This document shows positions 7,334 through 40,946 of a stretch of 64,000 nt of DNA, piece after piece; position 1 is the first letter of the stretch, and each line of letters starts with the position of its first letter. This DNA is from Actinoplanes ianthinogenes (lineage in GTDB: Bacteria; Actinomycetota; Actinomycetes; Mycobacteriales; Micromonosporaceae). The position numbers and the translations under genes are program-made. The stretch covers positions 9,368,501 to 9,432,500 of the forward strand of contig NZ_AP023356.1 in assembly GCF_018324205.1 (NCBI RefSeq), written 5' to 3'. Under the pieces are notes generated by a model, which saw nothing but the letters and a program-made list of their open reading frames with translations, did not search any database and was not told the DNA's origin.

Positions 7334-8068
7334 ATGAGCAACCAGAAGACCGCGCTGGTGACCGGCGCGAACAAGGGACTCGGATACGAGATCGCGGCGG
7401 GGCTGGGTTCGCGGGGCTACCGCGTGGTGGTGGGTTCCCGCGACAGGGCCCGGGGCGATGCGGCCGTGAAGCTGCTGGACGCCGCCGGAGTGGACGCGTT
7501 CGCGGTTGCGCTGGACGTGACCAGTGACCGCAGTGTCACCGACGCGGTGGGCCTGATCGAAAGCCGAGGCGGACGCCTGGACGTCCTGGTCAACAACGCC
7601 GGCATCTCGGGAGAGACCGGACCGGGGTGGGTGCAGGATCCGACCACGCTCAATCTTGACGTGGTCCGCACGGTCGTGGAAACCAATGTCTACGGTGCGA
7701 TCCGGGTGACCAACGCGATGCTGCCGTTGTTGCGGCGCTCGGCGTCACCACGCATCGTCAACATCTCCAGCAGCGTCGGGTCGGTGAACTGGCAGGCCGA
7801 CCCGGACGTCGAAGTCGGCCCGATCATGGCGGTGTACTCGCCGACGAAGTCGTACCTGAACGCGATCACGGTGCAGTACGCCCGGCAGTTCGCCGGCACG
7901 GGCATCCTCATCAACGCGGCCTGCCCGGGCCTGGTCGCGACCGACTTCACCGGATTCCGGGGCCGGCCCGCCCGGGAAGCCGCGGCGACGGCGATCCGGC
8001 TCGCGACGCTCCCCGACGGCGGCCCGACCGGCTCCTTCTTCAACGACGACGGCGTCATCCCCTGGTGA
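7334..8068 (+). CDS. Short-chain dehydrogenase/reductase
   Basis: The 244-residue classical SDR has TGANKGLGYEIA (cofactor GxxxGxG) at residues 10-21, LVNNAG in the middle, NISSSVGSV with the catalytic serine, and YSPTKSYLNA with the Tyr-x-x-x-Lys pair. The type resembles carbonyl reductase-like plant and actinomycete SDRs (ANKGLG motif). The ATG at 7334 is the first codon after the LysR operator. The substrate is unknown. Control by the divergent LysR gene is inferred. Confidence 0.88.
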   Translation: MSNQKTALVTGANKGLGYEIAAGLGSRGYRVVVGSRDRARGDAAVKLLDAAGVDAFAVALDVTSDRSVTDAVGLIESRGGRLDVLVNNAGISGETGPGWVQDPTTLNLDVVRTVVETNVYGAIRVTNAMLPLLRRSASPRIVNISSSVGSVNWQADPDVEVGPIMAVYSPTKSYLNAITVQYARQFAGTGILINAACPGLVATDFTGFRGRPAREAAATAIRLATLPDGGPTGSFFNDDGVIPW

Positions 8069-9860: not shown

Positions 9861-10040
9861 CCGCCATCGTGGCGTATCGACGCCGGAGAACGCTGAAGAC
9901 TTCGCTGCGAAGGGTGAAGCGGCTCGCGCCGGCGGAGATCAGTGCGCTCGGCCCCCGGAGCGGCCCGCGCCGAGACTCGGGGTGAGGTGGCTCCACCGTC
10001 GCTGAAGGCTTTTTCCAGCGGGGGATGAGATGACTTCGCC

Positions 10041-10916: not shown

Positions 10917-11008
10917 CCGCCCGGCCGGCCGCGGGAGCGCTGGAGGAGTCCTCGAGGACCGCTGAAGAGACGGTGCCCGCGGCAGCGCCCTGTGCCTCAA
11001 TGGCAGCC

Positions 11009-20265: not shown

Positions 20266-20309
20266 AGCAAACCGGGTCCGGCTGGAGGTTCCGTCGAGGA
20301 TCGAGCGAC
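20266..20309 (-). promoter_or_regulatory. Possible SARP-type promoter for the hydroxylase at 20235
   Basis: On the minus strand three heptamers GTCGCTC, CTCGACG and CTCCAGC follow each other at 11-bp intervals. The last is separated by 9 bp from TTTGCT, a weak -10 element. Only the heptamer nearest the start matches the cluster pattern well. The site overlaps the plus-strand one, so one SARP complex could serve both directions. Confidence 0.4.
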
Positions 20310-20332
20310 ATTCCAGGCCCGCCCGGCAGCGT
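20289..20332 (+). promoter_or_regulatory. SARP-type promoter for the methyltransferase
   Basis: The heptamers TTCCGTC (20289), ATCGAGC (20300) and TTCCAGG (20311) are exactly 11 bp apart with 4-base spacers. Nine bases then lead to CAGCGT (20327-20332), a -10-like hexamer. The spacing is identical to the elements at 29526 and 35030, which both use CAGGGT. Confidence 0.55.
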
Positions 20333-20369: not shown

Positions 20370-21176
20370 GTGACCCGTCCCAGCTGGGCGCCCCCGGAGA
20401 TCGACATCGACCGGCCGAGCATCGCCCGGGTCTACGACTACTGGATCGGCGGCACCCACAACTTCCCGGTCGACCGGGAGGTCGGCCGCACCGTGGAGCA
20501 GGCCAATCCGCTGCTGCCCAAGACGTTCCGGGCCAACCGCGCCTTCCTGCGGCGCGCCGTGCGGGAGTTGTCGGCGCTCGGCGTCCGGCAGTTCCTCGAC
20601 GTGGGCTCCGGCATCCCGACCGAGGGCAACGTGCACGAGATCGCGCTGGCCGGCGACCCGGACAGCCGGGTCGTGTACGTCGACATCGACCCGGTCGCGG
20701 TCGCGCACGCCGGGGCGATCCTGGCCGGCGAGCCGCGTGCGGTGGCCATCCAGGGCGACCTGTTCAAGTGGGCCGACATCCTGGATGCGCCGGAGACCCG
20801 CGGGCTGCTCGACTTCGACCAGCCGATCGCGGTGATCCTGGCCGCGATCATCCACTTCGTGCCGCCGGAGGCGGACCCGGTCGCGCTGGTCGACAAGTAC
20901 GTCGAGCCGCTCGCCCCGGGCAGCTACCTGGTCGTCACGCACGCCGGCGCGGAGACCGTGCCGGACGCCACGCCCGGCTTCGCGGCCCGGTACCAGGGCG
21001 CCGTGAACGAGGTGATCTGGCGCGACCGGGCCGAGCTGACCACCCTGTTCCACGGGCTGGACCTGCTCGAGCCCGGGGTGGTGCCGGTGCCGCTGTGGCG
21101 TCCCGAGCCCGGCGGCGACCCGGACAACCTGGGCGCGGACGCCCCGATGCTGGCCGGTGTGGCCCGCAAGCCTTAG
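20370..21176 (+). CDS. SAM-dependent methyltransferase family protein (DUF574 type)
   Basis: The 268-residue protein has the DUF574/Methyltransf_19 signature. Residues about 10-30 contain RVYDYWIGGTHNFP; a SAM-binding loop FLDVGSGIPTEGN is near 80; YVDIDPVAVAHA follows. This family is abundant in actinomycetes and its methylation targets are not established. GAGGAA precedes the GTG at 20370. A SARP-like promoter lies 38 bases upstream, so it may belong to the pathway, although the family is also common outside clusters. Its stop overlaps the convergent MarR stop. Confidence 0.85.
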   Translation: MTRPSWAPPEIDIDRPSIARVYDYWIGGTHNFPVDREVGRTVEQANPLLPKTFRANRAFLRRAVRELSALGVRQFLDVGSGIPTEGNVHEIALAGDPDSRVVYVDIDPVAVAHAGAILAGEPRAVAIQGDLFKWADILDAPETRGLLDFDQPIAVILAAIIHFVPPEADPVALVDKYVEPLAPGSYLVVTHAGAETVPDATPGFAARYQGAVNEVIWRDRAELTTLFHGLDLLEPGVVPVPLWRPEPGGDPDNLGADAPMLAGVARKP

Positions 21177-21640
21177 TCGTCGGCGCCGGGCTTCTGGTCC
21201 GGCAGCGCCGCCAGCGCGTCGACGTACTTGATCAGCAGGCGGGCGAACTCCAGGCGCTCGTGCTCCGGCCAGTCGCGGGTGATGTGCTCGTAGGCCTCGC
21301 GCTGGTGCTGGCGGAAGTCCGCCAGCATCGCGCTGCCCGCCTCGGTCAGCTCCACCACGGTGCGCCGCCCGTCGCGCTGCGAGGCGACCCGGCGCAGGTA
21401 TCCGGCCGAGATGGCGTCGGAGACCATGCGGCTCGCGGCCGACGGATCGACCGCGAGCCGCTCGGCGATGTCGCCGACCGTGATGTCGTGGTCGGCCCGC
21501 TCGGCGGCGTCGTACGCGATCTGCAGGACGCGGGTCCGGGTCAGGTCCCGGCGCGAGATCGGCTTCTGCGCGTTGAGGGCGACCGACCTGCCCAACCGGG
21601 AGAAGGCCGGGCCCACCGCGTCCATCAAGTCTTCGCCCAT
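21173..21640 (-). CDS. MarR-family regulator
   Basis: From the ATG at 21640 this is a 155-residue MarR protein. The winged helix is at about 45-100 (ITVGDIAERLAVDPSAASRMVSDAISAGYLRRV) and ends in the wing DGRRTVVELTEAG. Longer in-frame starts exist (ATG 21676), but that codon lies within the operator palindrome, so the internal start is preferred with moderate certainty. It is divergent from the operon at 21842. Related palindromes at three other cluster promoters suggest it is a cluster-wide repressor responding to a pathway product or intermediate. Confidence 0.88.
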   Translation of the reverse strand: MGEDLMDAVGPAFSRLGRSVALNAQKPISRRDLTRTRVLQIAYDAAERADHDITVGDIAERLAVDPSAASRMVSDAISAGYLRRVASQRDGRRTVVELTEAGSAMLADFRQHQREAYEHITRDWPEHERLEFARLLIKYVDALAALPDQKPGADD

Positions 21641-21666
21641 GTCCACCGTTCGTCGATCGGTTATGC

Positions 21667-21690
21667 GTGAGGTCATACATATGACTTCAC
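21667..21690. promoter_or_regulatory. MarR operator palindrome
   Basis: The core GTCATACATATGAC (21672-21685) is a perfect palindrome apart from the central two bases. It extends on both sides to 11-base arms with one mismatch. It lies between the MarR gene and the divergent operon starting at 21842, as expected for autoregulation. Confidence 0.7.
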
Positions 21691-21841
21691 TTCGCGCAGA
21701 TGCTACCCCGCCCCGGCCGGCCCTGACATCGTCCCGCACCGCACATCACGGCTACAGCGTCGCTCGACCGGCGTTCGAAGGCGGGCCCCGACAGTGATGG
21801 CCGGCGCGGGAACGGCCCGCCCCCGGACAGAGGAGAGCGCC

Positions 21842-29488: not shown

Positions 29489-29520
29489 CAACGGCCCCTC
29501 CCGCCCGGGAGGGGTCGTTG
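29489..29520 (+). terminator. Hairpin terminator
   Basis: A 14-bp stem (CAACGGCCCCTCCC with GGGAGGGGTCGTTG, one wobble) and a GCCC loop lie 14 bases after the hydroxylase stop. It ends the upstream operon just before the SARP-type promoter at 29526. Confidence 0.8.
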
Positions 29521-29525
29521 ATCGT

Positions 29526-29569
29526 TTCCAGCCTCGCTCCAGCCGAGCCCGAGCGCCGCTTGCCAGGGT
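29526..29569 (+). promoter_or_regulatory. SARP-type promoter of the amidotransferase operon
   Basis: The heptamers TTCCAGC (29526), CTCCAGC (29537) and CCCGAGC (29548) are spaced at 11 bp. Nine bases later comes the -10-like CAGGGT (29564-29569), followed by GAGG. The layout is the same as at 35030. It sits between a terminator and the DUF1772 gene start at 29619. Confidence 0.7.
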
Positions 29570-30556: not shown

Positions 30557-32397
30557 GCGGACTGGCAGCGTGGGTGGACTTCGGCCGGCAGGACGTGGTG
30601 CACCCGGCGACGGTGCGGGAGATGGCCCGGCGGCTGCGCCATCGCGGCCCGGACGGCGAGGGGGAGTGGTCGGCGCCGCACGTCGCGTTCGCCGTTCAGC
30701 GCCTGGCCGCGGTGGACCCGGCCGGCAGCGCGCAGCCGGCGGTGGCGCCGGACCGGGCCGTCCTGATGCTCGACGGCATGATCTACAACCACGAGGAGCT
30801 GCGCCGCGACCTGCACGGGCGCGGCCACTGGTACCGCGGCGGCGGTGACGCGGAGGTGGCCCTGGCCGCCTATGTGGAGTGGGGCGCCGACTTCGCGTCC
30901 CGGCTGGAGGGCATGTTCGCGATCGTCGTCTGGGACCCGCGCCGGGAGGAGTTGCTGCTGGTCCGCGACCGGCTGGGCGTCAAGCCGCTCTGCTACACCC
31001 GCCGTGACGCGGGACTGATCGTCGGCTCCGAGCCGAAGGCGCTGTTCGCGCACCCGGCGGTCGACCCGGTGGTCGACGCCGACGGGCTGCGGGAGCTGTT
31101 CGCGCACGGCAAGCTGCCCGGCACGACCGTCTTTCAAGACATCTTCGAGGTACGCCCGGGGCACTGCGTCCGGTTCGGCAGCCGTGGCCTCACCCAGCAG
31201 CGCTACTGGAACCTGGAGGCCGCCGAGCACCACGACGACCTGCCGGCCACCGTCGGCACCGTGCGGCGGCTGCTGAGCGACGCGGTCGCCACCCACCGGC
31301 GTGGTGACGTGCCGGTCGACGCCATGCTCTCCGGCGGCATCGACTCCAGCGCGCTGACCGCCCTGGCCGCCCGCCACGACGCCGGGCTGCGGTCGTACTC
31401 GGTGAACTTCGCCGGGTACACCGAGAACTTCGAGCCGCACCCGACGATGCGGGCCACGCCGGACGCGCCGTACGCCGCGATGGTGGCCGAGCACGTCGGC
31501 ACCCGGCACACCGAGATCCTGGTGCACCTGGCCGAGCTGACCGACCCCGGGCTGCACCGGGCCGCGATGGCCGCGCAGGACGCGCCGTCGCCGCTGGGTG
31601 ACATGGACGCCTCGCTGCTGCTGTTCTTCCGGCGGCTGGGCGAGCAGGGCCGCCGGGCGGTGCTCTCCGGGGAGACCGCCGACGAGGTGTTCGACGGCTA
31701 CTTCTGGGCGTACGACCCGCAGCACAGCAACTCGGCGACGTTCCCGTGGGTGTCGTTCGAGCGCGGGCACGACGCGGCCGTCGGGGGGCTCGGCTGCTCG
31801 CTCATCGACCTGTCGCTGCGCAAGGAGCTCGACTTCCTCGGGTACGCCGACGGGCACTACCGGGACGCGCTGGCCGAGGTGTCGCACCTGCCGGGCGCCA
31901 CGCCGCGGGAGCGCCGGGCCCGGGAGGTGACCTATCTGGCGCTGACCCGCTGGGCGCCGACGCATCTGGACCGGGCCGACCGGCTGAGCATGGCCGCCGG
32001 CGTGCAGCTGCGGCCGCCGTTCTGCGACCGCCGCCTGATCGAGTACGTGTACAACGTGCCGGCCGCGCTCAAGCGGGCCGGCGGCCGGGAGAAGGGCCTG
32101 CTGCGCGAGGCGGTGGGCGATCTGCTGCCGGCCCCGGTGCTGGAGCGGCGCAAGAGCGCCTATCCGACAATCCAGGAGTCCGCGTACGGCGCCGCGGTGC
32201 GCAGCCGGTTCGCCGAGCTGGCGAACGACCGCAACGCGGCGGTCGCCCCGCTGCTCGACCCGGCGGCCACCACGGCCGCGCTGGCTGCGGTGACGGCCCC
32301 GGAGGGCGCGTTCGCCTGGGTGGAGCGGGCCAGCATGGAGATGGTCCTGCAACTGGACGCCTGGCTCACCGACTACGCGGTGACGTTGCGGGTGTGA
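30553..32397 (+). CDS. Asparagine-synthetase-type amidotransferase lacking Cys2
   Basis: The 614-residue protein has an N-terminal class II amidotransferase domain (MSGLAAWVDFG, RHRGPDGEGEW, MIYNHEEL, GDAEVALAAY) and a C-terminal AsnB-like synthetase domain with the PPi loop SGGIDSS (260-266). The catalytic N-terminal Cys of MCGI is Ser here, so glutamine hydrolysis should fail and free ammonia or another donor is expected. In lysolipin-, xantholipin- and fredericamycin-type clusters such enzymes amidate the polyketide acid to give a lactam. That is the inferred role. It ends the 29619-32397 operon. Confidence 0.9.
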   Translation: MSGLAAWVDFGRQDVVHPATVREMARRLRHRGPDGEGEWSAPHVAFAVQRLAAVDPAGSAQPAVAPDRAVLMLDGMIYNHEELRRDLHGRGHWYRGGGDAEVALAAYVEWGADFASRLEGMFAIVVWDPRREELLLVRDRLGVKPLCYTRRDAGLIVGSEPKALFAHPAVDPVVDADGLRELFAHGKLPGTTVFQDIFEVRPGHCVRFGSRGLTQQRYWNLEAAEHHDDLPATVGTVRRLLSDAVATHRRGDVPVDAMLSGGIDSSALTALAARHDAGLRSYSVNFAGYTENFEPHPTMRATPDAPYAAMVAEHVGTRHTEILVHLAELTDPGLHRAAMAAQDAPSPLGDMDASLLLFFRRLGEQGRRAVLSGETADEVFDGYFWAYDPQHSNSATFPWVSFERGHDAAVGGLGCSLIDLSLRKELDFLGYADGHYRDALAEVSHLPGATPRERRAREVTYLALTRWAPTHLDRADRLSMAAGVQLRPPFCDRRLIEYVYNVPAALKRAGGREKGLLREAVGDLLPAPVLERRKSAYPTIQESAYGAAVRSRFAELANDRNAAVAPLLDPAATTAALAAVTAPEGAFAWVERASMEMVLQLDAWLTDYAVTLRV

Positions 32398-32447
32398 CCG
32401 GCTCACGGATTGTGACGCCGGAAGGAGCCCGGCAACGATTCACATGA

Positions 32448-32474
32448 GTGTTGTCATGCATATGAAATTGGCAA
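32448..32474. promoter_or_regulatory. MarR-box-like element
   Basis: GTGTTGTCATGCATATGAAA contains GTCATGCATATGA, one base off the core of the MarR palindrome. It shares 14 bases with the element at 15885. It lies between the amidotransferase stop and the hairpin at 32500, about 420 bases before the SARP start, so its target promoter is unclear. Confidence 0.4.
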
Positions 32475-32499
32475 CTCAATGTTGTTGCCGAGCGGTCTC

Positions 32500-32529
32500 G
32501 AGGGGCCGGCGCCGTCGCGCCGGCCCCTC
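32500..32529 (+). terminator. Strong hairpin terminator
   Basis: A perfect 13-bp stem (GAGGGGCCGGCGC with GCGCCGGCCCCTC) and the 4-base loop CGTC lie 103 bases after the amidotransferase stop. It isolates the SARP gene from upstream transcription. Confidence 0.8.
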
Positions 32530-32892
32530 GCCCCGTCCCCGGGCCGGTCCGCTTTGCGCTGCTGGCGGCTGTTGCTGATAGCCCGCTGAAAACGCCGCGC
32601 ATTTCGAAAAGTATTCCTTGCGGAAAGTAAACTGCACGACAGATCGCATTCTTACGGCCTTGCCGAAACGATCGTTAAATGGCGGAGCGACGTCACGCGA
32701 TGTGACGCCAGGCGGTGTGTTGTACATCGCTCTCGGCTCTCTCCAGGCCTCTGACCTGGTAATTCATCGGTTTTTAAATATCTTGGATTTGTGTCGCGGA
32801 CCTGTTCACAGTCGCCCTCCAGCAATCTTCGAGCACTTGTTAGCCCAATGTCCCATGGCTAGTGTGGGTGATGGCCCGCTTGGGGAAGTTCC
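32530..32892 (+). promoter_or_regulatory. SARP gene leader region
   Basis: This non-coding stretch is clearly less GC-rich than the rest, with AT-rich patches around 32580-32680 and 32760-32790. Two features stand out: a 6-bp inverted repeat (32691-32707) and a heptamer pair CTCCAGC (32817) and TTCCGAGC-like TTCGAGC (32828) spaced 11 bp apart, possibly SARP autoregulation. A short open frame from 32618 lacks normal codon bias and is not counted as a gene. Confidence 0.5.
32691..32707. promoter_or_regulatory. Inverted repeat upstream of the SARP gene
   Basis: CGTCAC and GTGACG are separated by five bases, about 190 bases before the SARP start. It may be an operator of an unidentified regulator. 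Confidence 0.4.
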
Positions 32893-34953
32893 GTGAAGGA
32901 CGTCAATGTGACGAACATGGGCATGGGCCGGGACGGGGGCGAAGTGATCAAGATTGAGTTATTGGGTTCGCTGCGCGTGCGGAGGAAACGAGACCTGACA
33001 CCGTCGGCGCCCAAGCTGCGCCGGGTGCTGGCCGCCCTGGTGCTGAACGCCAATCTGGTGGTCAGCGTCGAGCAGCTGGCCGAGGAGCTCTGGGAGGACA
33101 GCCCGCCCGCCAGCGCGCAGACCACCATGCAGACCTACATCTACCAGTTGCGCCGGCGGCTCGGCCTGGCCGAGGAGCAGAGCCGCCCGGCCTATCCCGG
33201 ACACGCCGAGGAGGCGACGGCCCCGGTCCTGCTCACCCGGGTGGGTGGCTACGAGCTGCGCCTCGGCGACGACGCGTGGGTGGACGTGCACGACTTCGAC
33301 CGGGCGGTCAGCCGCGGCCGGGCGTTGCTCGACTCCGGCCGGCTCGCCGAGGCGGTGGAGAGCTTCGGCGCCGGGCTGGCGCTCTGGCGCGGGCCGGCGC
33401 TGGTCGACGTCACGGTCGGCCGGCAGCTCTCGGTCTGGGCCACCGAGCTGGAGGAGCGTCGCAAGACCACCATCGAGCGGCGATTCGGCGCGCTGCTCCA
33501 GATGGGCCAGCACCACGCCATCGTGGACGAACTGGCCGGTGTCGCCGGGACATACCCGACCCACGAGGGCTTCGCCCGCCAGCTGATGCTCGCGCTGCAC
33601 CGGTGCGGGCGCCGCGCGGAGGGGCTGGACGCCTTCCGCCGGCTGCGCAGCCGGCTCGTCGAGGATCTCGGCGTCGAGCCGTCCGCCGCGCTGCACCGGC
33701 TGCACCAGGGCATCCTCGCCGACGACCCGAAACTGTACGCGACCCCGCACGCCGCGCCGGCCGAGCAGGCGGCGCCGGTCGTCCGGCCCTGCCCGGCCCC
33801 GGCCGCCGTGACCACCCGGACGGTGACGGCGCCCGCCCAGCTGCCGCCCGGCATCCCGGACTTCGTCGGCCGCGCCGAGGAGCTGTCCCTGGTGGAGCGG
33901 GTGCTCACGGACAGCCGGCCGAGCGACGCCGGTGCCCGGATCGTCGAGGTGCACGGCCCGCCCGGGATCGGCAAGACCACCTTCGCGGTGCGGGCCGCGC
34001 ATCGCGTCCGCGAGCACTTCCCCGACGGCCAGCTGTTCATCGACGCCTCCGGGCTGACCTCGGGCGACGTCCGGATGGCCGACGTGCTCACCGCCACGCT
34101 GCGCTCCTGCGGGCTGCCCCGGGAGACGCTGCCGGAGAGCGTCGCCGACCTGAGCCGGACGCTGCGCAGCTGGACCGGCGACCGCCGGGTGCTGCTGGTG
34201 ATCGACGACGTGCTCAGCGCCGAGCTGCTGAAACCGCTGTTGCCGGGCTCGTCCGGGTGCGCCGTCGTCTGCACCAACCGGTACCGGCACGAGGGCCTGG
34301 CCGGCGCCCACCGGGTCACCCTGCCCGCGCCCACGCTGGACGAGGGGATGCGGTTGTTCGCCGGCATCGCCGGGTCGTGGCGGATCGAGGACGAGGGCGA
34401 CGTGGTCGAGGAGCTGCTGACCATGTGCGACCTGCTCCCGCTCGTGGTGCGTGGTGTCGCCACCCGGCTGTCGACCCGTCCCGGGTGGAGCGCCGGGCGG
34501 CTGCGCGACCGGCTGCGGGTCGACGAGTCGATGTTCCTCGACCTCGCCGCCGGCCCGGCCAACCTGGTCGGCAGCATCGCGCTGAGCTACCGCAACCTGC
34601 CCGACGCGCACCGCCGGGTGCTGCAACTGATGGCCACCGGTCGTCCGGCCGGCTGGACGCCGCGCGTGGTCGCCGACGAGCTCGGCGAGTCGCCGGAGGC
34701 CGCCGAGATCATCCTGGAACACCTCGTCGACATGAACCTGGCGGAGGAGACGCCGTCCGCCACCACCCCGAGCCACCGCGCCCTCGCCCCGCTGCCGGAG
34801 TACCGCTACCGGCTGCCCCGGCTCACCGCGCTCGCGCTGCGCTCGATCACCCGGGCCGAGGAGTCCGGCCTCTACACCCCCGCCGTGCCGCTGCCGAGCC
34901 CCCACCGGTTCCACTGGTCCCCGTTCTCGCTGCCCGCCGGCAACCCCGCCTGA
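32893..34953 (+). CDS. AfsR/SARP-type pathway activator with NB-ARC domain
   Basis: The 686-residue regulator has an OmpR-like winged helix (about 20-110: IKIELLGSLRVRRKRD, LAEELWEDSPP) and a BTAD (about 125-270, ending LRSRLVEDLGVEPSAALHRL). An NB-ARC ATPase follows, with Walker A GPPGIGKTT (355-363) and Walker B VLLVIDDV. TTA encodes Leu23 (32959-32961), linking it to bldA. The GTG at 32893 has GGGGAAG upstream. A GTG at 32944, giving the usual VIKIELLG start behind GGGGG, is an equally good alternative. It is the expected activator of the SARP-type promoters at 20289, 29526 and 35030. Confidence 0.92.
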   Translation: MKDVNVTNMGMGRDGGEVIKIELLGSLRVRRKRDLTPSAPKLRRVLAALVLNANLVVSVEQLAEELWEDSPPASAQTTMQTYIYQLRRRLGLAEEQSRPAYPGHAEEATAPVLLTRVGGYELRLGDDAWVDVHDFDRAVSRGRALLDSGRLAEAVESFGAGLALWRGPALVDVTVGRQLSVWATELEERRKTTIERRFGALLQMGQHHAIVDELAGVAGTYPTHEGFARQLMLALHRCGRRAEGLDAFRRLRSRLVEDLGVEPSAALHRLHQGILADDPKLYATPHAAPAEQAAPVVRPCPAPAAVTTRTVTAPAQLPPGIPDFVGRAEELSLVERVLTDSRPSDAGARIVEVHGPPGIGKTTFAVRAAHRVREHFPDGQLFIDASGLTSGDVRMADVLTATLRSCGLPRETLPESVADLSRTLRSWTGDRRVLLVIDDVLSAELLKPLLPGSSGCAVVCTNRYRHEGLAGAHRVTLPAPTLDEGMRLFAGIAGSWRIEDEGDVVEELLTMCDLLPLVVRGVATRLSTRPGWSAGRLRDRLRVDESMFLDLAAGPANLVGSIALSYRNLPDAHRRVLQLMATGRPAGWTPRVVADELGESPEAAEIILEHLVDMNLAEETPSATTPSHRALAPLPEYRYRLPRLTALALRSITRAEESGLYTPAVPLPSPHRFHWSPFSLPAGNPA

Positions 34954-34968
34954 CGCCCGCCCCCTGAC

Positions 34969-35000
34969 GCGCCCCGCCCGGTCCCGGGCGGGGCGCCTTT
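34969..35000 (+). terminator. Hairpin terminator after the SARP gene
   Basis: A GC-rich 13-bp stem (GCGCCCCGCCCGG with CCGGGCGGGGCGC) followed by CTTT lies 15 bases after the stop. It separates the SARP gene from the PKS core operon promoter. Confidence 0.8.
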
Positions 35001-35029
35001 CGTCGTCCCGGCGAGGTGTTCGACGCCGC

Positions 35030-35073
35030 CTCCAGACACGTTCCATCACGTCTCCAGAACGGTCCACCAGGGT
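35030..35073 (+). promoter_or_regulatory. SARP-type promoter of the PKS core operon
   Basis: The heptamers CTCCAGA (35030), TTCCATC (35041) and CTCCAGA (35052) are exactly 11 bp apart. Nine bases later is CAGGGT (35068-35073) as -10 element. The first PKS gene starts at 35104. Heptamer direct repeats at helical periodicity before the -10 are the known binding arrangement of SARP activators. Confidence 0.75.
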
Positions 35074-35103
35074 GAGGGCATCACAGCGACCCCTGGAGGA
35101 AAC

Positions 35104-35469
35104 GTGCACCGAAGCCTGATCGTGGCCAGGATGAAGCCCGGCGACGCGGAGGCCGTGGCCGGTGTCTTCGCCGACTCGGACCGGACCGACCTGCCGCGCA
35201 TGGTGGGGGTCACGCGCCGGACCCTGTTCCGCTTCCACAACCTCTACTTCCACCTGGTGGAGGCGCCGGAGGACATCACGCCCCACCTGTACCGGGCCCG
35301 CAGCCACCCGCTGTACGGCGACATCAACACCCGACTCGGCGAGTTCATCTCGCCCTACGACCCGAACTGGCGTGAGCCCAAGGACGCGATGGCCGAGCCG
35401 TTCTACGTCTGGACGCCCGAGGACGGACCGGCGTTCGCCGGCACCCCGGCGCCGGGGCGGAGCGCCTGA
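35104..35469 (+). CDS. TcmI-type polyketide cyclase
   Basis: The 121-residue protein has the dimeric ferredoxin-like fold of TcmI/SchA/CurD-type cyclases: [41 protein letters not shown] and FYVWTP near the end. These enzymes close later rings of aromatic polyketides. GGAGGAAAC precedes the GTG start. It is the first gene of the core operon, 31 bases after the SARP-type -10 element, and overlaps the cupin gene (TGATG). Confidence 0.88.
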
Positions 35470-35882
35470 TGGGCGCGCAGAAGGTCGCCGTCGCCGAGGT
35501 CGCGGCGAACACCCGGCGCGGCGGCGACATCCGGGTCACGCTCAGCCCGAAGACGGTCGGCTGCACGTCCGGTTTCGGCGGCGTGCTCACCCTGGCGCCC
35601 GGCGACCGCGTCACCGAGCACCTGCACCCGCACTCCGAGGAGTTCCTGCACGTCGTCGCGGGAACCCTGGAGATGGCGGTGGACGGCGTCCCGGTCCGGC
35701 TGGAGCCGGGCGACTCGCTGCTGGTGCCGATCGGCGTGCGGCACCGCCTGGTGAACGTGGGCGCCGGCGAGGCCCGCGCGGTGTTCCACCTGTCCCCGCT
35801 GGCCCCGCGCCCCGAGCTCGGGCATGTCGACCTGGAGGAGACCGGGCCGGGCGCCAACCCCGACGTCGGGGGCCGATCGTGA
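35469..35882 (+). CDS. Cupin-fold polyketide cyclase-type protein
   Basis: The 137-residue single cupin has [19 protein letters not shown] (His-x-His plus Glu of metal-binding motif 1) and [22 protein letters not shown] (motif 2). Cupins of this type are partners of TcmI-like cyclases in whiE/cur/sch-type and pentangular clusters, where they help in later ring closure. It overlaps both neighbours (start codon at the cyclase stop, four bases into KS-alpha). Confidence 0.85.
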
Positions 35883-37132
35883 CCCGCCGGGCGGTCATCA
35901 CCGGCATCGGCGCTGTCGCGCCCGGCGGCGTCGGCCGGGACCGGATGTGGGACCTGCTGACCGCCGGGCGTACCGCCACCCGCACCATCTCGCTGTTCGA
36001 CGCGTCGGGCTTCCGCTCGCGGATCGCCGCCGAGTGCGACTTCGATCCGGCCGCCGCCGGGCTGAGCCCGCAGGAGATCCGCCGGATGGACAGGGCCGCT
36101 CAGTTCGCGGTGGTCTCCGCCCGCGAGGCGATCGCCGACAGCGGCATCGACGCGGCCGGGTACGACCCGGCCCGGATCACGGTGAGCGTGGGCAGCGCGG
36201 TCGGCTGCACGATGGGCCTGGAGCAGGAGTACGCCGTGCTCTCCGACGGCGGCCGGAAGTGGCTGGTCGACCACCGGTACGGCGTGCCGCACCTGTACGG
36301 CTACATGGTGCCGAGCACCCTGGCCGTCGAGGTCGCCTGGCAGATCGGCGCGGAAGGGCCGGTGGCGCTGATCTCCACCGGCTGCACGTCCGGACTGGAC
36401 GCCGTCGGGCACGCCGTGCAGCTGATCGAGGAGGGCGGCGCCGACCTGGCGGTGGCCGGCGCGACCGACGCCCCGCTGTCGCCGATCACCTCGGCCTGCT
36501 TCGACGCGATCCGGGCCACCTCGCCGCACAACGACGACCCGGAGCACGCCTCCCGGCCCTTCGACGGGCGGCGCAACGGCTTCGTCCTCGGCGAGGGCTC
36601 GGCGATCATGGTGATCGAGGAGGCCGAGGCCGCCCGGGCGCGCGGGGCGCGGATCTACGCCGAGGTGTCCGGCTTCGCCAGCCGCAGCAACGCCTACCAC
36701 ATGACCGGGCTCAAGCCGGACGGCCGGGAGATGGCCGAGGCGATCCGGGTGGCGCTGGACCGGGCCCGGCTGGACCCGGCCGCGGTGGGCTACGTCAACG
36801 CGCACGGCTCCGGCACCAAGCAGAACGACCGGCACGAGACCGCCGCCTTCAAACGGACGCTCGGCGCGCACGCGTACCGGGTGCCGGTCAGCTCGATCAA
36901 ATCGATGATCGGGCACTCGCTGGGCGCCATCGGCTCGCTGGAGGTCGCCGCGTCGGCGCTCGCCCTGCACCACCAGGTCGTGCCGCCGACCGCCAACCTC
37001 ACCGTCGCCGACCCGGAGTGCGATCTCGACTACGTGCCCGGCGACGCCCGGGAGCACCGGATGGACGTGGTGCTCAGCGTCGGCAGCGGCTTCGGCGGCT
37101 TCCAGAGCGCGATGGTGCTGAGCCGGTGCTGA
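35879..37132 (+). CDS. Ketosynthase alpha subunit, type II PKS
   Basis: The 417-residue KS-alpha catalyses the chain-building condensations. The active Cys169 lies in [11 protein letters not shown], His309 in [14 protein letters not shown] and His346 in [12 protein letters not shown]. The end has the GFGGFQSA signature. The GTG at 35879 overlaps the cupin stop. It acts as a heterodimer with the chain-length factor encoded immediately downstream and loads malonyl units from the ACP at 38379. No KSIII or acyltransferase for an unusual starter is present, so acetate priming is the simplest reading. Confidence 0.96.
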
Positions 37133-37152
37133 GCCGCGAACGGGGGGAATCC

Positions 37153-38382
37153 GTGACCACATCCCACGCCGTGGTGACCGGGATCGGCGTCGTCGCGCCG
37201 ACCGGCGTCACCACCGCCGAACACTGGGCGTCCGTGCTGGCCGGCAAGAGCGGGCTCGGCCGGATCACCCGCTTCGACGCCGGTGACTACCCGGTCCGGG
37301 TGGCCGGGCAGGTTCCCGGCTTCCGGGCCACCGAGCAGGTCCCGGCCCGGCTGGTGCCGCAGACCGACCGCGGCACCCACTTCGGGCTGGTGGCCGCCGC
37401 CGACGCGCTGATCGACGCCCGGGTCGACCCGCAGGAACTGCCCGAGTACGAGATGGCCGTGGTGACCGCCGCCTCGTCCGGCGGCACCGAGTTCGGCCAG
37501 CACGAGATGGAACGGCTCTACACCAAGGGACCGGACTGGGTCGGCGCCTACCAGTCGATCGCCTGGTTCTACGCCGCCACCACCGGCCAGGTGTCGATCC
37601 GGCACGGGATGCGCGGGCCGTGCGGGGTGATCTGCACCGAGCAGGCCGGCGGGCTCGACGTGCTCGGCCAGTCCCGGCGGCTGCTCGGCAGCGGCTCCCG
37701 GCTGGTGCTCGGCGGCGGCTCCGACGCGTCGCTGTGCCCGTACGGCCTGGTCGCCCAGCTCAGCAACGGCGGGCTGTCGGCGGATCCGGACCCGGCGCGG
37801 GCGTACCTGCCGTTCGACGCCGACGCGGCCGGGTACGTGCCGGGCGAGGGCGCCGCGATGCTGGTCGTCGAGGACGAGGCGGCCGCCGCGACCCGTGGCG
37901 CCCCGGTCTACGGCCGGATCACCGGGTACGCCGCGGGCTTCGACCCGCCGCCCGGCTCGCCCCGCCCGCCCGTGCTGGCCCGGACCATCCGCGCCGCCCT
38001 CGCCGAGGCGCGCCTCGACCCGGGCGACGTGGACATGGTCTTCGCCGACGCCGCCGGGCAGCCGGACGCCGACCGGCGCGAGGCCGAGGCGCTCGCCGAG
38101 ATCTTCACACCGGGCGGCGTCCCGGTCACCGCGCCCAAGACGCTCACCGGCCGGATGTACGCCGCCGGCGCCGCGCTCGACGTCGCCACCGCCCTGCTCG
38201 CCCTGCGTGCCGGGGTGATCCCGCCGACCGCGCCGGTCGCCCGCCCGGCCTCCGGACCGGCCCTCGACCTGGTCTCCGAAACCCGTTCCAGCGATCCGCG
38301 CACCGCCCTGGTGCTCGCCCGGGGCCACGGCGGCTTCACCGCCGCCCTGGTCGTGACCGCTCCCCGAAAGGACACCGCATGA
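37153..38382 (+). CDS. Chain-length factor (KS-beta)
   Basis: The 409-residue KS-beta partner has Gln164 in GVICTEQAGGLD where KS-alpha has its Cys. This is the hallmark of chain-length factors, which decarboxylate malonyl-ACP and set chain length. Other family features such as YVPGEGAAMLVVED and the C-terminal GHGGFTAA are present. GGGGGGA precedes the GTG at 37153. Co-occurrence with pentangular-type tailoring genes suggests a long (C24-C26) chain, which remains inference. Confidence 0.95.
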   Translation: MTTSHAVVTGIGVVAPTGVTTAEHWASVLAGKSGLGRITRFDAGDYPVRVAGQVPGFRATEQVPARLVPQTDRGTHFGLVAAADALIDARVDPQELPEYEMAVVTAASSGGTEFGQHEMERLYTKGPDWVGAYQSIAWFYAATTGQVSIRHGMRGPCGVICTEQAGGLDVLGQSRRLLGSGSRLVLGGGSDASLCPYGLVAQLSNGGLSADPDPARAYLPFDADAAGYVPGEGAAMLVVEDEAAAATRGAPVYGRITGYAAGFDPPPGSPRPPVLARTIRAALAEARLDPGDVDMVFADAAGQPDADRREAEALAEIFTPGGVPVTAPKTLTGRMYAAGAALDVATALLALRAGVIPPTAPVARPASGPALDLVSETRSSDPRTALVLARGHGGFTAALVVTAPRKDTA

Positions 38383-38642
38383 CCACCTTCACCGTGACCG
38401 ACCTGCGGCACCTGTTCGCCTCCAGCGAGGGCCTGGCCGGCAACCCCGCCTTCGGGCCGGACGAGCTGGACGTCGCGCTGGCCGACCTCGGCTACGACTC
38501 GCTGGCGATGCTGGAGCTCGCCGCGATCGTGCAGCGCGAGTACGGCGTACGGATGCCGGACGACTGCGTGATCGAGATGACCACGCCCCGCGCCGCCATC
38601 GAGTACATCAACCGCCGGCTGACCGAGGTGAACGCCGCATGA
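38379..38642 (+). CDS. Acyl carrier protein
   Basis: The 87-residue ACP carries the phosphopantetheine-accepting Ser41 in LGYDSLAMLE. Helices follow the usual pattern. It overlaps the chain-length factor stop by four bases and the aromatase start by four bases. It holds the growing poly-beta-ketone during synthesis and early cyclisation. Confidence 0.95.
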   Translation: MTTFTVTDLRHLFASSEGLAGNPAFGPDELDVALADLGYDSLAMLELAAIVQREYGVRMPDDCVIEMTTPRAAIEYINRRLTEVNAA

Positions 38643-39103
38643 GCGGACACACCGACAACGTGATCGTCATCGACGCGCCGCTGGACCTGGTCTGGGCGAT
38701 GACCAACGACGTGGCGAGCTGGCCGCGCCTGTTCAGCGAGTACGCCGCCGCCGAGATCCTCGCCCAGGACGGGCCGACCGTCCGGTTTCGCCTCACCCTG
38801 CACCCCGACGAGCAGGGCCGCACGTGGAGCTGGGTGTCCGAGCGCACCCCCGACCGCGACGCCCTCCAGGTGCACGCGCACCGGGTCGAGACCGGGGTGT
38901 TCGCGTTCATGAACATCCACTGGACGTACGAGCAGACCGCCGCCGGCGTGCGGATGCGCTGGGTGCAGGACTTCCGGATGAAGCCGGAGGCGCCGCTCGA
39001 CGACGCCGCCATGACCGAGCGGCTCAACCGCAACACCGCCGTCCAGATGCGGCTGATCAAGGACAAGGTCGAGGCCGCCGCCCGGGCCGGAGCGATCCGG
39101 TGA
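38639..39103 (+). CDS. SRPBCC aromatase/cyclase
   Basis: The 154-residue monodomain START/SRPBCC protein starts DNVIVIDAPLDLVWAMTNDV, with WPRLFSEYAAAEIL, then FAFMNIHWTYEQT and a long C-terminal helix. It resembles WhiE-ORFVI, TcmN-ARO and PdmD-type aromatases, which close and aromatise the first ring. It overlaps the ACP and ketoreductase genes by four bases each. Confidence 0.92.
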   Translation: MSGHTDNVIVIDAPLDLVWAMTNDVASWPRLFSEYAAAEILAQDGPTVRFRLTLHPDEQGRTWSWVSERTPDRDALQVHAHRVETGVFAFMNIHWTYEQTAAGVRMRWVQDFRMKPEAPLDDAAMTERLNRNTAVQMRLIKDKVEAAARAGAIR

Positions 39104-39855
39104 CCGCGGCGGGCGCGCTCGCCGGGCGGCGGGCGCTGGTCACCGGCGGCACCAAGGGGATCGGCCGGGGCGTCGTGCTGGCCATGGCCCGGGCCGGCGC
39201 CGACGTGCTCACATGTCACCGGGCGGACGACGACAGCGCCGCCTCGCTGCGCGCCGAGCTGGCCGGCCTGCCCGGCAAGCACCACGTCGTCCGGGCCGAC
39301 GTCAGCGACCCGGCCGACGCGCGGCGCCTGCTCGCCGAGTGCGAGTCGGCGCTCGGCGGCCTGGAGGTGCTGGTGAACAACGCCGGCGCGTTCCGGCCGC
39401 GGCCGTACGCCGAACTCAGCGCCGGCGAGTGGAGCACCACGCTGGCCGGCAACCTGACCGCGACGCACCAGCTGACCCAGGGCGCGCTGCGGCTGCTCGC
39501 GCCCGGCTCGTCGATCGTCAACTTCGGATCGACGGTCACCTTCGTCGGCATGGCCGGCGGCGTGCACTACACAGCGGCGAAGGCGGCGATCGTCGGCTAC
39601 ACCCGCTCGCTCGCCCGTGAACTCGGCCCGGAGGGCATCCGGGTCAACGTCATCTCACCGGGCCGGATCGACACCGAGGCCCTGGACGCGCTCGGACCCG
39701 AGGAGGCGGCCCGGCAGCGGGCGATCTTCTCCCGGTTCAACGCCCTGGGCCGGCTCGGCACGGTGGCCGAGATCGCGGCGGTCGCGGTCTTCCTGGCCGG
39801 CCCGGTTTCCGGATATGTCACCGGCCAGAACATCCACGTCGACGGTTGCGTCTAA
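39100..39855 (+). CDS. Polyketide ketoreductase, first copy (SDR)
   Basis: The 251-residue SDR has VTGGTKGIGRGVV (NADPH loop), LVNNAG, the catalytic Ser in NFGSTVTF and the Tyr/Lys in HYTAAKAA. It shares the unusual segment GADVLTCHRAD with its downstream copy at 39869. In pentangular polyphenol systems a ketoreductase sets one specific carbonyl before cyclisation. The GTG at 39100 overlaps the aromatase stop. Confidence 0.92.
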   Translation: MTAAGALAGRRALVTGGTKGIGRGVVLAMARAGADVLTCHRADDDSAASLRAELAGLPGKHHVVRADVSDPADARRLLAECESALGGLEVLVNNAGAFRPRPYAELSAGEWSTTLAGNLTATHQLTQGALRLLAPGSSIVNFGSTVTFVGMAGGVHYTAAKAAIVGYTRSLARELGPEGIRVNVISPGRIDTEALDALGPEEAARQRAIFSRFNALGRLGTVAEIAAVAVFLAGPVSGYVTGQNIHVDGCV

Positions 39856-39868
39856 CAGGGAGAAGAAG

Positions 39869-40618
39869 ATGGACTTCGGTCTGCAAGGCCGCAAAATCCT
39901 GGTCACCGGCGGCACCCGGGGCATCGGCCGGGGGATCGTCCTGGCCGCCGCCGAGGCCGGCGCCGACGTGCTCACCTGCCATCGCAGCGACGGACCGGCG
40001 GTGGACAGCCTGGTCGCGGCACTCAAGGAGACCGGCGGCGACCACCACGTCGTCCGCGCCGACCTGGCCGAGGTCGGCGAGGTCGACCGGCTCGCCGCCG
40101 AGGCCCGGGAGCGGTTCGGCCGGCTCGACGGCGTCGTCAACAACGCCGGCGTGATCAGCCACATCCCGTACGAAAATCTGGCCGTCGAGGAGTGGCACCG
40201 GGTGCTGGACACCAACCTCACCGCGGCCTTCCGGGTCGTGCAGCAGTGCCTGCCGCTGCTCGGCGAGCGGGGCTCGATCGTGAACATCGGCTCCCGCGGC
40301 GCGGCGGCCGGCATCCCGCTGCGCGCCCACTACACCGCGGCCAAGTCGGCGATGATCGGGCTCACCCGCTCGCTGGCCAAGGAGTACGGCTCGCGCGGGC
40401 TGCGGATCAACGTGCTCGCGCCCGGCGTCATCGAGACCGAGGCGATGGACGAGATGCCGCCGGAGCGCGCGCAGGCGCTGCGCGACATGTACTCGGGCAA
40501 GACCGCCCTGGCCCGCCTGGGCACCGTCCCGGAGGTCGCCGCGGTGGCGTTGTTCCTGCTCAGCGACCTCAGTGGATACATCACCGGGGAGACCCTGAAC
40601 GTCGACGGAGGGATCTGA
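39869..40618 (+). CDS. Polyketide ketoreductase, second copy (SDR)
   Basis: This 249-residue paralogue of the preceding gene has VTGGTRGIGRGIV, GADVLTCHRSD, VVNNAG, NIGSRGAAAG and HYTAAKSA. Both copies keep the Asn-Ser-Tyr-Lys set, so both should be active, perhaps on different carbonyls. They clearly arose by tandem duplication with later divergence. GGGAGAAGAAG precedes the ATG. Confidence 0.92.
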   Translation: MDFGLQGRKILVTGGTRGIGRGIVLAAAEAGADVLTCHRSDGPAVDSLVAALKETGGDHHVVRADLAEVGEVDRLAAEARERFGRLDGVVNNAGVISHIPYENLAVEEWHRVLDTNLTAAFRVVQQCLPLLGERGSIVNIGSRGAAAGIPLRAHYTAAKSAMIGLTRSLAKEYGSRGLRINVLAPGVIETEAMDEMPPERAQALRDMYSGKTALARLGTVPEVAAVALFLLSDLSGYITGETLNVDGGI

Positions 40619-40619
40619 G

Positions 40620-40946
40620 ATGGCTGCCGAACGGTTCCGGGTGATGCTGCGCATGCAGATCAAGCCCGGTGTGGAGGCCGAGTTCGAGCGGGTGTGGCGC
40701 GAGGTCGGCGACTCGGTGACCAGCCACCCGGCCAACCTCGGGCAGTGGCTGTCGCGCAGCATCGACGAGGACGGCATCTACTACATCGTCAGCGACTGGG
40801 TGGACGAGCCGCTGTTCCGCGAGTTCGAGACCAGCGACCGGCACCTCGAGCACCGCACGAAGCTGCACCCTTACCGCAGCGGCGGCTCGATGACCACGAT
40901 GCACGTGGTGGCCCACCTGCCGGCCGGGACCGGGGCGTCGCGGTGA
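40620..40946 (+). CDS. ABM-family monooxygenase/cyclase, first copy
   Basis: The 108-residue protein has the antibiotic biosynthesis monooxygenase fold: [21 protein letters not shown], then [22 protein letters not shown] proteins such as PdmH, ActVA-6 or TcmH oxidise anthrone-like intermediates to quinones without cofactor. GGAGGG precedes the ATG. It overlaps the next ABM gene by four bases. Confidence 0.88.

Follow-up and report, generated by a model that had tools for sequence, protein, structure and literature searches.

Results

Gene content of the locus and layout of the upstream array

The window analysed here, a stretch of 64,000 nt with a G+C content of 72.8%, is part of the 9.9-Mb single-contig genome of Actinoplanes ianthinogenes (G000:C1:9368501-9432500). 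It carries a type II aromatic polyketide cluster, with KS-alpha, CLF, ACP and cyclase genes lying downstream of the array described below (Table 1). Orientation and spacing suggest that the core operon is one transcript. Besides the AsnB-type gene, the region upstream of the core operon contains an anthrone-oxygenase-like gene, FAD monooxygenase and methyltransferase genes and two SnoaL-like cyclase genes, and the gene set as a whole suggests that the product may be pentangular or xanthone-like. The two SDR genes are adjacent at 39100-40618, and the open reading frame listed at 39617 exceeds the matched domain of the second, which starts at about residue 90.

Table 1. Coordinates of genes and sequence features in the window; arrays, heptamer pair, -10-like hexamers and hairpins are predicted elements
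Feature	Position	Strand	Description	Basis
Possible array	9991..10034	+	CTCCACC-CTGAAGG-TTCCAGC; before SnoaL-like gene
Array	20289..20332	+	TTCCGTC-4-ATCGAGC-4-TTCCAGG-9-CAGCGT; before SAM methyltransferase gene (GTG 20370)
Probable array	21752..21795	+	CTACAGC-CTCGACC-TTCGAAG plus GACAGT; before BBE/POT/FAD genes
Hairpin, terminator-like	29489..29520	+	14 bp; just upstream of 29526 array; z -4.73
Array	29526..29569	+	TTCCAGC-4-CTCCAGC-4-CCCGAGC-9-CAGGGT; before anthrone-oxygenase-like gene (ATG 29619) and AsnB
AsnB-type amidotransferase gene	30553		Upstream of core operon
Heptamer pair	32817..32834	+	CTCCAGC-4-TTCGAGC; upstream of SARP gene
SARP gene, medium-sized	32893..34953	+	686 aa	Pfam and structure match
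GC hairpin, terminator-like	34969..34996	+	12 bp; between SARP gene and 35030 array
SARP-type array, heptamer 1	35030-35036	+	CTCCAGA	Sequence reading
SARP-type array, heptamer 2	35041-35047	+	TTCCATC	Sequence reading
SARP-type array, heptamer 3	35052-35058	+	CTCCAGA	Sequence reading
-10-like hexamer	35068-35073	+	CAGGGT; 9 nt past heptamer 3
Ribosome site	35095-35099	+	GGAGG	Sequence reading
Core operon start codon	35104-35106	+	GTG	Sequence reading
Core operon	35104..40946	+		Pfam searches
TcmI-type cyclase gene	35104			Pfam
Cupin gene	35469			Pfam
KS-alpha gene	35879			Pfam
CLF gene	37129			Pfam
ACP gene	38379			Pfam
TcmN-type cyclase gene	38639			Pfam
Two short-chain dehydrogenase (SDR)/KR genes	from ~39100; within 39617-40618			Pfam
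ABM monooxygenase gene	40620			Pfam
Acetyl-CoA carboxylase (ACC) homologue	41110		After core operon	Pfam

The three heptamers before the core operon are separated by 4 nt each, giving an 11-bp period of about one DNA turn, and CAGGGT ends 30 bp ahead of the first codon. Direct reading of the sequence thus bore out the original prediction, which placed three heptamers 11 bp apart and 9 nt from CAGGGT in front of a PKS core operon; the Pfam assignments agree with the latter part. The geometry had also been described as that of SARP activators, and it matches the published one, in which direct repeats 11 or 22 bp apart end 8 bp from the -10 element by the authors' counting, as given in the cited passages of PMC10936776. 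Here the distance is 9 nt counted from the heptamer end, the published value depending on where repeat boundaries are drawn. No sigma-70 type promoter exceeded the scan threshold in 32390-35120, and the position of a -35 box before the core operon is, by reading, occupied by heptamer 2.

The hairpin region between the SARP gene and the array (34964-35010) has a folding energy of -32.1 kcal/mol (z -3.94), with only CTTT after the stem. Few T residues follow the stem of this hairpin or of the one before the 29526 array, and the terminator scan, whose range took in one of the two, did not report it. These hairpins probably end the previous transcript, so that each of the two arrays would open a new one.

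The SARP gene and its upstream heptamer pair

The product of the gene at 32893 begins with an OmpR-type winged helix (Trans_reg_C, residues 40-95, E 7.1e-10) followed by BTAD (130-275, E 1.6e-40), the arrangement that defines the SARP family, and continues with NB-ARC (347-529). At 686 aa it agrees with the medium SARP layout of about 600 aa with a SARP domain and NB-ARC outlined in the cited passages of PMC10972967. No TPR match was found in it by Pfam at E 0.001. Its best match among solved structures was AfsR (E 2.7e-64), and its P-loop looks intact in that alignment. These data confirm the earlier assignment of 32893 as a SARP gene. An identification as AfsR itself, the global regulator, was rejected, since that would call for a TPR region and a match along the whole AfsR equivalog model, NF053617, whereas the match reached 297.5 bits against a cut-off of 1430 and covered only positions 27-592 of 986. 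When the recognition helix was aligned with those of AfsR and the SARPs of related clusters other than the sister cluster G010, residues corresponding to AfsR W74, P79, T88 and R94 were identical, while K95 was replaced by R, Q48 by K and R92 by Q. Given that R92 of AfsR contacts T-38 (PMC10936776, cited passages), base reading may differ in detail. Taken together, the domain make-up marks the 32893 SARP as the likely reader of the arrays.

The heptamer pair upstream of this gene scores 14/14, a value reached by none of 3000 random 300-bp stretches. It is followed by TTGTTA (32837-32842) and, after 17 nt, TAGTGT (32860-32865), a pair found by reading that lies below the promoter-scan threshold; TAGTGT stands 14 nt, not 9, past the third 11-bp unit. 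We read TTGTTA/TAGTGT as a putative basal promoter that would be boosted by the SARP. The 32817 site is located within a block that is almost identical in G010, the whole 487-bp intergenic alignment being 69% identical. Among 10 SARP genes examined, whose starts were taken from alignment starts and are therefore approximate, a strong forward pair precedes three (14/14 in the window, 13/14 in G031 and G030). The gene of G037a has a 14/14 pair on the opposite strand, and the remaining six reach at most 11/14, within the background range. The G010 SARP gene, which is outside the 10, keeps the forward pair. Auto-regulation as a general rule is unsupported, a forward pair being present only in the window, G010, G031 and G030.

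Other arrays in the window

The same layout had been proposed at 29526 and 20289, and both the 11-bp period and a NANNNT hexamer at 9 nt hold at all three sites. The proposed consensus, close to YTCCAGM, was upheld in part: when three heptamers in 11-bp register were scored (maximum 21), 35030 and 29526 reached 20 and 19, but 20289 fits poorly (16/21). The bottom strand of the 20289 region, toward the divergent FAD monooxygenase gene, has a weak score of 14 and is not counted as a site.

Further SARP-type sites are likely at 32817, before the SARP gene, and at 21752, before the BBE operon, where the predicted array scores 17/21 for the wider consensus YTCSAGM. A MarR-type regulator gene diverges from the BBE genes (21173-21795), and the 21752 array lies in their common intergenic region, so an activator and the MarR protein may compete there. 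The predicted site at 9991, before the SnoaL operon, is a possible one; it fits the consensus poorly and its hexamer, GATGAC, is a poor -10. A minus-strand array at 10939-10967 (score 18) was rejected, being inside coding DNA with no -10. G010 has a score-18 array at the place matching 10967, as coding conservation alone would give.

Rarity of the arrays

YTCCAGM triples with at most three mismatches were found three times in the window (35030, 29526 and the antisense 10939-10967) against an expectation of 0.02; 20289 was not among them. A background sample taken from the same genome (120 stretches of 20 kb, both strands, together 2.4 Mb or 24% of it) contained no array scoring at least 18/21 for YTCCAGM, and the window has one each at 18 (antisense, coding), 19 and 20. 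Arrays comparable to 20289 (16 with a -10) number five in this background, at 16 or 17. In the 24% of the genome sampled, the pattern is thus not frequent at the level of 35030 and 29526, but sites like 20289 are not rare. With YTCSAGM, which was chosen after the sites had been seen, the same background gave eight arrays at 18 and none at 19, and none of the eight has NANNNT at 9 nt. When periods of 7-18 were compared in the window, only a period of 11 gave scores of at least 19. One background stretch (G000:C1:8000001-8020000, about 7550-7770) holds a repeat unit of about 53 bp with TTCCGGC/CCCCAGC words, which supplies all three score-17 matches in the first 400 kb of the background.

Because the consensus was derived from these same sites, the rarity counts are partly circular; the evidence from conservation and related clusters is less so. 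Self-similar heptamer triples (first identical to third, second matching in at least 4/7) occur about twice per 64 kb by chance, so that 35030 would fall short of significance if its consensus, spacing and conservation were set aside, and self-similarity was rejected as stand-alone evidence. Given this, and given that 20289-like sites are not rare, the argument needs all three of consensus, spacing and conservation.

Conservation in the sister cluster

The cluster is also present in G010, a genome of the same genus, where the SARP is 91% identical. At 35030, none of the 21 heptamer positions differs from G010, compared with 7/17 spacer positions and 17/30 upstream bases (ungapped), and the hexamer is GAGGGT in G010. 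The 29526 and 20289 arrays each have one heptamer change in 21, with 3/17 and 2/17 spacer changes. Over the three arrays, 2/63 heptamer and 12/51 spacer positions are changed (Fisher p = 0.001). Adding 9991, where heptamers (3/21) and spacers (3/17) vary alike, and 32817 (1/21 and 0/17) gives 6/105 and 15/85 (p = 0.009); as its spacers do not vary, 32817 gives no support to the contrast. At 21752, which was treated apart from these totals, heptamers 1 and 2 are the same in both clusters and heptamer 3 differs at four positions. Both terminator-like hairpins differ in their letters in G010 with their pairing intact. G010 also has an extra strong array with GACGGT before an O-methyltransferase gene (13585 of its locus, minus strand); the sequence upstream of that gene differs in the window and has no array of that strength.

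Arrays in more distant clusters

Of 67 genomes of the genus searched, 12 gave a cyclase match, the genome studied here included, and SARP matches were added from G133 and G009. From 12 genomes besides G010, 17 loci (335 kb) were fetched, and dropping the near-duplicates L122, L123 and L130 left 14. Arrays were picked by heptamer score alone (YTCSAGM, both strands, overlapping registers counted), and the offsets of NANNNT were then tallied. Among 44 arrays scoring at least 17, NANNNT stands at exactly 9 nt in 21, every other offset from 0 to 19 occurring at most three times; in the background of the genome studied here, the figure at 9 nt is 4 of 70 arrays. This choice of arrays, blind to the -10, provides the strongest support for the 9-nt rule.

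In the 160 bp before the cyclase gene, 7 of 13 loci (5 of 11 when the window and G010 are set aside) reach a combined score of at least 18, as does 1 of 3000 random stretches of the genome studied here, which are mostly coding DNA and hence a lenient control for promoter regions. The arrays lie at -74 in the window and G010, -75 in G006, -79 in G041 and G043 (nearly identical to each other), -113 in G001 and -120 in G037a. No such array precedes the cyclase gene at this distance in the other six loci (G031, G030, G037b, G046, G017 and G018). In G031, G030, G017 and G018 another gene of the same direction closely precedes the cyclase gene; G031 and G030 have their 13/14 pair before the SARP gene heading that gene series, and G017 has a score-17 array with a -10 farther upstream of the cyclase gene. 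G031 and G030 also contain, on the minus strand (L118 8697 and L123 9330), four successive TCSAG heptamers in 11-bp register (TTCGAGC, CTCCAGC, TTCGAGC, CTCGAGC), the best-scoring arrays found.

The array is kept in G006, G041 and G043. On the core contig, the BTAD match closest to the cyclase gene lies 66 kb away in G006 and 53 kb away in G041, and in G043 the 40-kb core contig has no listed BTAD match. Since the contig continues for about 22 kb after the core in G041 and is 40 kb long in G043, a SARP past the contig end is possible in these two, less so in G006. The arrays of G006, G041 and G043 (L128-L130) could serve a remote SARP or some other reader, or could be remnants.

Discussion

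What this study establishes directly is the sequence, its spacing, the gene identities, the conservation and the rarity in the sampled genome. From these we infer binding, a transcription start, activation and auto-activation, and we consider it highly probable that a SARP-dependent promoter drives the core operon, with 35030-35073 supplying its activator-binding and -10 elements. Judging from the sequence, the three repeats very probably dock the cluster's own activator. The array is a well-supported example of an already known kind of bacterial switch; the present analysis extends the earlier prediction by adding sites to it, by showing the exact 9-nt rule in related clusters and by making a case for auto-activation.

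The closest parallel is AfsR at afsS of Streptomyces coelicolor. According to the cited passages of PMC10936776, two AfsR protomers sit on 11-bp repeats, contacting the first 8 bp of each, cover the -35 region and hold sigma region 4, and changing T-38 and T-27 to A prevents binding. The 35030 region likewise has 11-bp direct repeats overlapping a poor -35, with an inferred T-38/T-27 register, and a suboptimal -10 of similar form (CACTGT at afsS, CAGGGT here), and the 32893 protein has related DNA-binding, BTAD and NB-ARC regions. Unlike afsS, which has two heptamers and the half-site TTCAGC in the same passages, the array here has three heptamers and the half-site TCCAGM, and unlike AfsR, the 32893 regulator is encoded within the cluster and gave no TPR match in Pfam. 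FdmR1 at fdmD of the fredericamycin cluster is also a medium SARP with NB-ARC in a type II PKS cluster, acting at three heptamers 8 bp upstream of the -10 (PMC10972967 and PMC7040171, cited passages); the comparison made here is one of layout. PimR at pimM also has three heptamers with 4-nt spacers, two being the minimum for binding, but its heptamer is CGGCAAG, there is no -35 overlap and the protein is a SARP-LAL (PMC5930380, as far as the cited passages go). The oxy promoters bound by OtcR resemble the present case in having several arrays in one aromatic polyketide (oxytetracycline) cluster, an 11-bp period and 8 bp to the -10; they differ in a unit of 9 nt, e.g. CGGTCGAAG, mostly with two repeats, and in a different SARP (PMC4393881, cited passages). 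The published SARP site sequences compared here are other than TCCAG in the passages cited (including PMC5930380, PMC10972967, PMC4393881 and PMC7040171).

We propose that the cluster's SARP (32893-34953) would bind the heptamers side by side on one DNA face. The two gene-proximal heptamers would take the place where sigma region 4 otherwise needs a -35 box, and, as with AfsR at afsS, the SARP would keep both sigma region 4 and the RNA polymerase core in position. Heptamer 1 may accommodate a third protomer, in line with the three-heptamer SARP sites and the two-heptamer minimum of PimR. If CAGGGT is placed at -12 to -7, transcription would start near 35080 (+1), and the T conserved in heptamer 2 (35042) would fall at -38 and that in heptamer 3 (35053) at -27. 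The other arrays are probably switched on together by the same SARP, whose gene may be amplified by its own product through 32817.

Other readings of the array were weighed. One is that the arrays are SARP-type sites whose main reader is a different SARP encoded in the genome, for instance a global regulator like AfsR, the local protein having a minor part. There are 22 BTAD matches in the genome, so that another SARP could bind; the array persists in G006, G041 and G043, where the contig examined showed no SARP within about 50 kb; and TCCAGM resembles the afsS -35/half-site TTCAGC (PMC10936776, cited passages). However, arrays this strong occur mainly here, none having turned up in the 2.4 Mb sampled from other parts of the genome, and the SARP gene adjoins the array and itself has a 14/14 pair, making a mainly foreign reader unlikely.

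Binding by PhoP or another OmpR-type response regulator using 11-bp direct repeats appears very unlikely. The PhoP unit, GTTCACC, differs from YTCCAGM. Strong sites are found in this biosynthetic cluster with none in the sampled rest of the genome. In favour of this reading, AfsR and PhoP recognise overlapping repeats at afsS (PMC10972967, cited passages), and the 11-bp period is the same. A chance origin from words that abound in 73% GC DNA would be in keeping with the frequency of self-similar triples and with the score-18 antisense coding array at 10967, seen again in G010; but the conservation of heptamers over spacers in G010, the recurrence before cyclase genes and the 9-nt peak argue against it, and we regard it as extremely improbable.

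Returning to the cluster's own SARP as the reader, it is conceivable, though we hold this tentatively, that these aromatic-PKS clusters share a heptamer code peculiar to their lineage, with TCCAG and TCGAG intermixed, and that the circuit amplifies itself. The SARP gene, with two heptamers beside TTGTTA-17-TAGTGT, would have basal expression; its targets, in which a third heptamer replaces the -35, would be silent without SARP; and in G006, G041 and G043 the reader of the array would be a SARP whose gene lies in another part of the genome.

In summary, the analysis identifies a likely switch for an aromatic polyketide cluster, together with the transcription units under its probable control, so that overexpressing the single SARP gene would be a rational way to wake the cluster. 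The aligned SARP-type sites from related clusters and the clear 9-nt rule should be useful for predicting SARP regulons.
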